64,000 nucleotides of DNA, from assembly GCA_903944085.1 (NCBI GenBank), contig CAJAQO010000033.1, forward strand, positions 1 to 64,000, written 5' to 3'. The translations under genes were made by a program, and so were the position numbers. The notes under the pieces are model-generated. The model was not told the DNA's origin. It saw nothing but the letters and a program-made list of their open reading frames with translations, and made no database searches. Source of the DNA: an uncultured Verrucomicrobia subdivision 3 bacterium (GTDB lineage: Bacteria > Verrucomicrobiota > Verrucomicrobiia > Limisphaerales > UBA11358). The stretch's first letter is position 1; each line of letters starts with the position of its first letter. Positions 54,343 through 62,030 of this stretch are shown piece by piece.

Positions 54343-54387
54343 TGCGGCGGGCTTCGGGCGGCCCGCACTCCAACCAAATAAAAATTA

Positions 54388-54887
54388 TGGCAAACGATAA
54401 TCAAGTCTCCGGCGTCATCACCGACCAAAACATCACGGACATCCTCGGCCATCTCACGGCCATCCAGACGCTGCTGCCGTTTCTCATCAGCCGCGAGCCG
54501 GGTGACAACAATGTGATGCTCGGCGACAAGTCGGTGGGGTTCGATGAAAAATGCGCCGGCTACATGGCCAGCAATCCGGAGTTCATTCCCGGTTATGTCA
54601 AACCCGCCGACGTGCTCAATCACCGGGCATTGCGCGACCAGTTCAAGCAGTTTTTGCCGCAGCTCCAACTGCTCGCCGCCAAGGCCCAGGACACCTACGA
54701 CGTGGTGGGCAATGAGTTGATGATGGCCGACCTGGCGTATTACGGCAGCACCGGCGACGCCGCCAAACGAGGCCGGCCCAACGCCAATGACATCCATAAT
54801 GACCTCGCCGCCCGCTATCCCGGCCGCAACAGCAGCAGCCAGCCGGCATCGAATGCGCAATCCACTGCCAAAAAGGTGGTTGCGTAG
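54388..54887 (+). CDS. Hypothetical protein (about 166 aa)
   Basis: MANDNQVSGVITDQNITDILGHLTAIQTLLPFLISREPGDNNVMLGDKSVGFDEKCAGYMASNPEF...; upstream CCAACCAAATAAAAATT as for the gene at 18478. Confidence 0.7.
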
Positions 54888-55173
54888 GGAAACGAAGAGC
54901 TATAGGAGGGAAACGCAGCCCTCGCGGAGGGGAAATTATCCCTCGGCGAGGGCTGTTTTGGCGTCTGAAAGGGCGAGGGAGTCGTTCAAGAGGGATTGCG
55001 AGGCGGTCGGGAGGGATACTTACCCCTCGACGAGGCCTGCCGAGGCCTCGGGCCGGGCAATGGCGGTGGTTCAAAGGCCAAGGTTTCCCTTGCCAATGCC
55101 TCGCGACCCCGCGCGACCCTCGACGTTTCCCTCGCGAAGCAAGTCGTTGGCCGATTAAGGCAGGTCGTTGCCC
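54880..55173. repeat. Degenerate 21-bp-period tandem array (about 14 units), two arms of opposite orientation
   Basis: Successive 21-mers from 54880: ttgcgtagggaaacgaagagc, tataggagggaaacgcagccc, tcgcggaggggaaattatccc, tcggcgagggctgttttggcg ...; right end has plus-oriented cores cgacGTTTccctcgcg, aagtcGTTGgccgatta, aggtcGTTGccccggta at 55125, 55146, 55167. Confidence 0.85.
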
Positions 55174-61178: not shown

Positions 61179-61200
61179 CGGGCGGGAACCAGCAACCGGA

Positions 61201-61562
61201 TCAACAGGCTTTTTATGGATACTAACGGACTTTCGACCGATAACCATCGTCTCTAACTCAAAGCCAACAGTTTTCAAACAAGCACCAACCATCTTTGAAT
61301 CCACGCCAACGGGCTTGGATCACACAATTTCAGCAAATGTGCGCTATTGATAATCGTTTGTATGCTTCTATAAGTCGTTTGTAGGAGTGTAAAAATCATA
61401 TATATGCTTTTGCTATTCGTATATTTGCTTGGGCAAATACTCTTTATGCTTCTGCCTGTCGTTGGTAGGCTGCTGAAGTCCGTATGTATGATGTTACAGA
61501 CCGTCGGTATGCGTTGAATGCTCGTCGGTAAGGTTGTAAAAGTCGTTTGTAGGATTAAAAGG
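61201..61562. repeat. Degenerate 21-bp-period tandem array (about 17 units), two arms of opposite orientation
   Basis: Plus-oriented arm: (c)cg core at 61355, 61376, (61397), 61418, (61439), 61460, 61481, 61502, 61523, 61544, all spaced exactly 21. Left arm: ccaac/ctaac/tcaac at 61201, 61222, 61264, 61285, 61306, same 21 register, reverse orientation. Confidence 0.9.
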
Positions 61563-61599
61563 CTTGACGGGACGGGGTCGAAGGGTGTTGGCTGGAGGC

Positions 61600-61917
61600 A
61601 TGAAGACCTCTGCGCCCGCGCCAACCTCGTCGGCCGTCAAGCTAAAGCACTTGGCCAGCGTGCTGCACCAGCCGGTGCGCTGGCGAATCCTGAAGGAACT
61701 CGCCAAAGGCGAGGCGCTGCCGGTCTGGGTGCTGGCGGGACTGGCGCGGAGCACGCCGCCGAAGGTTTCCAAGCACATGGCGGTGCTGCGGAAGGCGGGG
61801 CTGGTGACGGTGGGTTACGGCCGGCTCTATAAACTGTCGCCGAATCTCAAGCCGGAGGCGGACGGCACGCGGCTGGACCTGGGGCATTGCGTGCTGAAGC
61901 TGGATGCGGCGTATTGA
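61600..61917 (+). CDS. ArsR-like winged-helix transcriptional regulator
   Basis: KLKHLASVLHQPVRWRILKELAKGEALPVWVLAGLARSTPPKVSKHMAVLRKAGLVTVGYGRLYKLSPNL. Confidence 0.8.
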   Translation: MKTSAPAPTSSAVKLKHLASVLHQPVRWRILKELAKGEALPVWVLAGLARSTPPKVSKHMAVLRKAGLVTVGYGRLYKLSPNLKPEADGTRLDLGHCVLKLDAAY

Positions 61918-61946
61918 AGGCCGTCCGCTCGCGCACGGCGGGCGGT

Positions 61947-62026
61947 GGAGTGCGGCGACCGGTCGCCGCTTTCCCACTGGGAGACAAGTCTCCCAGTTCC
62001 AAAGCGCGGACCTGTCCGCGCACTCC
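61947..62026 (-). repeat. 80-bp multi-hairpin (cloverleaf-like) dispersed repeat, copy 2
   Basis: Minus strand: GGAGTG CGCGGACAGGTCCGCG CTTTGGAA CTGGGAGACTTGTCTCCCAG TGGGAAA GCGGCGACCGGTCGCCG CACTCC: three hairpins plus closing stem. Confidence 0.9.
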
Positions 62027-62030
62027 AGAT

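Follow-up and report, generated by a model that had tools for sequence, protein, structure and literature searches.

The question raised by this locus is what maintains a period of exactly 21 bp, i.e. two turns of B-DNA, through an array of units that have otherwise diverged in sequence. The array lies near the end of the window, by which we mean the whole stretch of 64,000 nucleotides analysed from an uncultured Verrucomicrobia subdivision 3 bacterium, and has two arms: a right arm of ten 21-bp units (61337–61546, minus strand, the core reading approximately TCGTnnGTATGCTTn on the plus strand), supported by autocorrelation with shuffles and by a unit profile, and a left arm of six units (61200–61325, plus strand, core approximately CCAACnGnCTTT). 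Array boundaries were set by a profile-extension rule, and on our unit grid the arms are 11 bp apart. Identity at lag 21 is 0.578 in the right arm, compared with 0.276 (sd 0.032) after dinucleotide shuffling (z 9.4); lags 42 and 63 show harmonics and other lags no peak. In the left arm it is 0.495, compared with 0.259 in shuffles (z 5.3; P for any lag 0.0005). Either arm is internally free of indels. The original prediction had divided positions 61348–61557 into indel-free 21-mers and proposed autocorrelation at period 21 as the check; the peak stands far above the shuffles in both arms and bears out this period. The prediction also described the arms as head-to-head, and of this the periodicity of both arms stands, while their inversion relative to each other is weakly supported (profile correlation 0.47 in the opposite and 0.21 in the same orientation, P = 0.015 against column-shuffled profiles). 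For this reason, and because a second copy of the locus, described below, contains just one left-arm unit, we regard the right arm as the essential one. Tandem Repeats Finder, run on the locus, does not report the array, since the units are too diverged.

The key to the array is the adjacent gene, which went unlisted and was overlooked in the original prediction. It encodes an ArsR-like winged-helix DNA-binding protein of 105 aa (61600–61917, plus strand), a classification that draws on Pfam (HTH_5 at 28.1 bits with a cut-off of 22, HTH_20 at 33.3 with a cut-off of 27, and no match to a Rep family), on an alignment (A1), on an AlphaFold model with a winged helix-turn-helix (wHTH) and on a fold search, in which the best matches are SmtB, CzrA and CadC; the nearest solved structures include NmtR alongside SmtB and CzrA. 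The protein carries the C-terminal motif LDLGHCVLKLD. The signature of its subfamily is a C-terminal D-x-G-[HV]-C; D-x-G-x-C is invariant in alignment A1 and holds the single invariant cysteine. The metal-sensing motifs (the C-x-C of α3 and the ligands of α5) are absent from this alignment, and in the AlphaFold model no helix follows the wing, the usual last helix being replaced by C-terminal strands with D-x-G-x-C. A search for defence systems (PADLOC) returned nothing beyond a weak resemblance to the winged helix of Csa3.

Translation is likely to start at the ATG at 61600, and the mechanically called open reading frame from 61564 opens within a −35-like box, TTGACG (61564–61569, plus strand), at which the right arm ends. 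This box lies exactly 36 bp before the ATG, a position that is conserved in related loci: 12 of 36 loci have a TTGAC box between −36 and −34 relative to the ATG, nine of them exactly at −36, with 1.3 expected from shuffling. The −10 region (about 61588–61593) is a poor match, and a consensus promoter scan found no promoter here. With a TTGAC at this distance, transcription is predicted to begin at the ATG or close to it, and the array would directly precede the polymerase site, suggesting that the transcript is probably leaderless and that the array is directly beside the promoter.

The first sign of a link between array and gene came from a DNA search, which found the two together in another species of the genus, and homologues of the gene in relatives proved to be nearly all preceded by a period-21 array. 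In GTDB genomes we found 34 loci of the subfamily, all in records named Verrucomicrobiota or uncultured bacterium; one is cut by a contig end, and 31 of the 33 evaluable loci have a period-21 array approximately 0–150 bp upstream of the gene. Of 42 ArsR-type genes that belong to the same phylum and order but not to the subfamily, one was flagged as having an upstream array (Fisher P ~1e-17), and there it lies within a long open reading frame in a region of coding periodicity. The genomes compared are metagenome assemblies, and genes around the arrays were called with a simple hexamer scorer. Each of the six intact paralogues of this genome has an array, and the cores differ in nearly every case; the arrays on contigs C227 and C169 are alike, and their proteins are the most similar pair of paralogues apart from those of the window and C187. 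Two intergenic arrays were found in genome G070, both at winged-helix genes. Comparable arrays, for which the original prediction had called, are thus present both in the same genome and in relatives. Across the set they comprise 6–13 units on a conservative count, and in 35 of 38 arrays the AT content exceeds that of the surrounding sequence.

The period is far more constant than the sequence that it spaces. In approximately 580 kb of this genome, period 21 gave nine matches in each of two samples (in the second, two of the nine are coding repeats), while periods 19, 20, 22 and 23 gave none; other periods that are multiples of three gave some matches, partly coding. This census covered samples of the genomes, amounting to ~580 kb of this one, 169 kb of G001 (with no array), 149 kb of G017, and 194 and 200 kb of two others. 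In 38 arrays there was no case in which the repeat resumed out of step by 1–3 bp. The sequence of an array is private to its locus, the period alone being common to all. In a search with an IUPAC pattern (a unit profile model was dropped, as MAFFT aligned its overlapping windows by identity), the tandem core was confined in this genome to the present array and its copy on C220, the remainder being at control level. In a separate comparison, no match of winged-helix array cores to other arrays of the same genome was clearly above the expectation for multiple comparisons.

Between species, orthologous arrays are collinear unit by unit in three species, with linker identity of 0.53–0.54 in register compared with approximately 0.34 when the units are offset. 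Between collinear arrays, the share of changed positions is 21% in cores as against 36% in linkers (P 5e-10), a difference that is partly built in, as the core columns were picked from the same arrays; the near-identical copy on C220, which differs at one core and six linker positions, agrees with slower change of the core. High array similarity is limited to closely related proteins, and the similar arrays always have the same orientation to the gene. At equal identity of the rest of the protein (0.60–0.78), median array similarity is 0.62 for pairs with alike recognition helices compared with 0.35 for others (P 0.0005, an optimistic value given that pairs share members and are not independent). 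Array sequence follows the recognition helix, partly through shared ancestry.

Period-21 arrays also occur at unrelated genes. Small FN3-like genes (L095–L124 and L125–L148, with 13 matches in this genome) have a private period-21 array upstream in 28 of 37 loci, at distances of 120–690 bp; the units are often palindromic, and often there is a short upstream open reading frame. Arrays are found upstream of L076-type genes as well. No DNA-binding family was recognised in the proteins of the FN3-like and other non-winged-helix array loci. Many arrays of the FN3 type have palindromic units while those of the winged-helix genes mostly do not, the unit being more palindromic than expected by chance (P<0.05) in 4 of 38. 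The window itself contains another array, of 11 palindromic units (GAGGG...CCCTC, 54880–55110), directly 3' of a 166-aa gene of no assigned family (54387–54887, or to ~54884), and in three loci with homologues of that gene (L154, L157 and L158) an array likewise lies 3' of it. In G017, two contigs (L070, 18902–19106, and L071, 19763–19967) end, after degenerate units, in perfect tandem copies of ATCGATGTTCCCGCGAATTAC; this is a young 21-bp array breaking the assembly. At L052 (15451–15680), with no adjacent small gene recognised, an array of AGTTGCGACGGCC with variable 8-mers terminates in a hairpin (CGGCCAAAACCC/GGGTTTTGGCCG) followed by TTTT.

The stretch 61298–62030 (plus strand) is duplicated in the same assembly. 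The matching sequences are two contig ends that are not joined (C220:1–188 and C64:1–256); they are 95–98% identical to this stretch, with a gap, and their flanks differ, so that either array and gene are present twice or the contig ends come from a variant strain. Of the left arm, C220 retains one unit only. Also included in this copy is a long imperfect palindrome 3' of the gene (61937–62030; CGGCGACCGGTCGCCGC, ACTGGGAGAC..GTCTCCCAGT), which looks like a dispersed repeat of the REP type. The gene context in the window is chromosome-type. Among the FN3-like loci, two cassettes (L118, 1476–2697, and L122, 1476–2696) are 88.7% identical from the distal end of the array to the stop codon, with unrelated flanks and no target-site duplication seen.

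From these comparisons we consider it reasonably probable that the array is an iteron-like element, occupied on one face of the helix, that is bound by the adjacent winged-helix protein for autoregulation. It would present about ten asymmetric candidate sites, one per two helical turns (21 bp), which the small protein encoded by the adjacent downstream gene would fill side by side on one DNA face, cooperatively and, we infer, with its subunits head-to-tail. With the array ending at the −35 box of the gene's own promoter, its occupancy would set transcription of the gene. Each family member would read its own private array, with recognition helix and core changing together and the 21-bp spacing being kept. 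Such a constraint on spacing, with two helical turns per iteron- or operator-like site, was among the options of the original prediction, and is the one favoured by the evidence overall. Two points stand against this model: asymmetric units would be unusual targets for ArsR-type dimers, whose sites are normally palindromic, and a regulator with itself as the only visible target is odd. Moreover, as similar arrays lie beside unrelated small genes without a recognised DNA-binding protein, binding by the neighbour protein is not the whole story.

The arrays at other genes are the main reason to consider that one general factor, either nucleoid- or partition-like or sensing the period, reads all arrays, the winged-helix gene being one of several neighbouring families. 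In favour of such a factor, private arrays with only the period in common occur at most FN3-like loci, before genes of the L076 type and 3' of the 54387–54884 family. We nevertheless regard it as rather unlikely, given that orthologous winged-helix loci retain similar cores, whose sequence tracks the recognition helix, that the FN3-type arrays differ in kind, and that both intergenic arrays found in G070 are at winged-helix genes. A broader possibility, which we advance tentatively, is that period-locked 21-bp arrays are widespread in Verrucomicrobiota, each with a sequence private to its locus and read sequence-specifically by its own product or partner, and that whole units of array and gene spread through genomes. 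If true, the winged-helix and FN3-like families alike would represent a self-addressing element of a new kind, regulatory or chromosomal. More narrowly, the array could be part of a mobile unit, as a terminus or recombination site, with array and gene moving as a cassette. The recurrence of array and gene in the assembly between different flanks, the FN3 cassettes with unrelated flanks, and the variation of contexts between species speak for mobility, but its probability is small: inspection of two pairs showed no transposase, target-site duplication or terminal repeat, some loci hold the same context across species, no partner gene recurs at 34 loci beyond one syntenic group of 3–4 loci, and no relatives were found in viral contigs or in phage and plasmid collections. 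A partition or replication module is likewise disfavoured by the lack of a recurring partner gene and of plasmid or phage relatives.

Explanations in which the array acts as RNA or has no function fare worse. The original prediction had allowed for a small-RNA or guide-like array, and a structured leader may be added to this; some non-winged-helix arrays do have a promoter-like distal end, or a terminal hairpin plus a T run. For the present array this is very improbable, as neither strand has excess structure (folding z −0.8 and −0.9), no Rfam family is matched, and the array lies upstream of the predicted start of a leaderless transcript. Its units are diverged along the whole array, without identical repeats alternating with unique spacers, and, there being no partner gene either, a CRISPR or guide-RNA array was rejected. 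Near-perfect arrays in relatives (L163, 0.82; L189, 0.87; the perfect 21-mers of L070/L071) show that arrays can arise by tandem amplification, and would be compatible with a decayed, functionless minisatellite whose period is inherited from tandem duplication. Given the strict linkage to one gene subfamily, the lack of slippage and of any period other than 21, a core that changes more slowly than the linker, and the collinearity of arrays between species, we find this scarcely credible. The third option of the original prediction, a heptapeptide-coding repeat, is rejected, as many arrays of the family have stops in all six frames and open frames number 54 of 228 compared with 46 expected.

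We found no paper on such arrays in the open-access literature, and three known systems offer comparisons. The ArsR/SmtB autoregulators (SmtB, CzrA, CadC and NmtR) share the winged-helix domain and an operator at their own promoter, which is putative here. In known members the operators are palindromic, one or two in number, and metal sites are present, whereas the present locus has a directional array, no C-x-C in the alignment, and D-x-G-x-C strands in place of the usual last helix. In type III partition systems, the tubC array adjoins the tubR gene. TubR, a small winged-helix protein, builds a nucleoprotein superhelix on the repeats that it binds (PMC9178275). The pairing of a small winged-helix gene with a repeat array is the same; unlike in TubRC, no TubZ/FtsZ-like GTPase or other partner recurs, the period is 21 bp, and there are many copies per genome.

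The closest working analogy is with plasmid iterons, which sit beside the gene of their own Rep protein. Monomers of winged-helix Rep proteins bind these 17–22-bp repeats cooperatively, and a separation of half a turn abolishes cooperativity (PMC4980987). In both cases (R6K π, RK2 TrfA and F RepE being the plasmid examples), asymmetric units of 17–22 bp are arranged head-to-tail at regular helical spacing and the protein is a winged helix. Here, by contrast, the winged helix is of the ArsR type, the contigs are chromosomal MAG contigs with several paralogues, there are up to 13 units, each gene has its own site sequence, and no origin features or replication genes are seen; as the protein is not a Rep and no origin was identified, we would not count the array as a member of the iteron family. 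If our reading is right, chromosomes would have evolved their own equivalent of plasmid iterons around a protein of the ArsR type, with dozens of natural pairs of protein and array in which helix and site have changed and the spacing has not. These pairs would be a rare data set for the DNA specificity of winged helices and for what an array of ten sites at a single promoter computes, and the same period at unrelated small genes would point to a shared, undescribed principle in the phylum.
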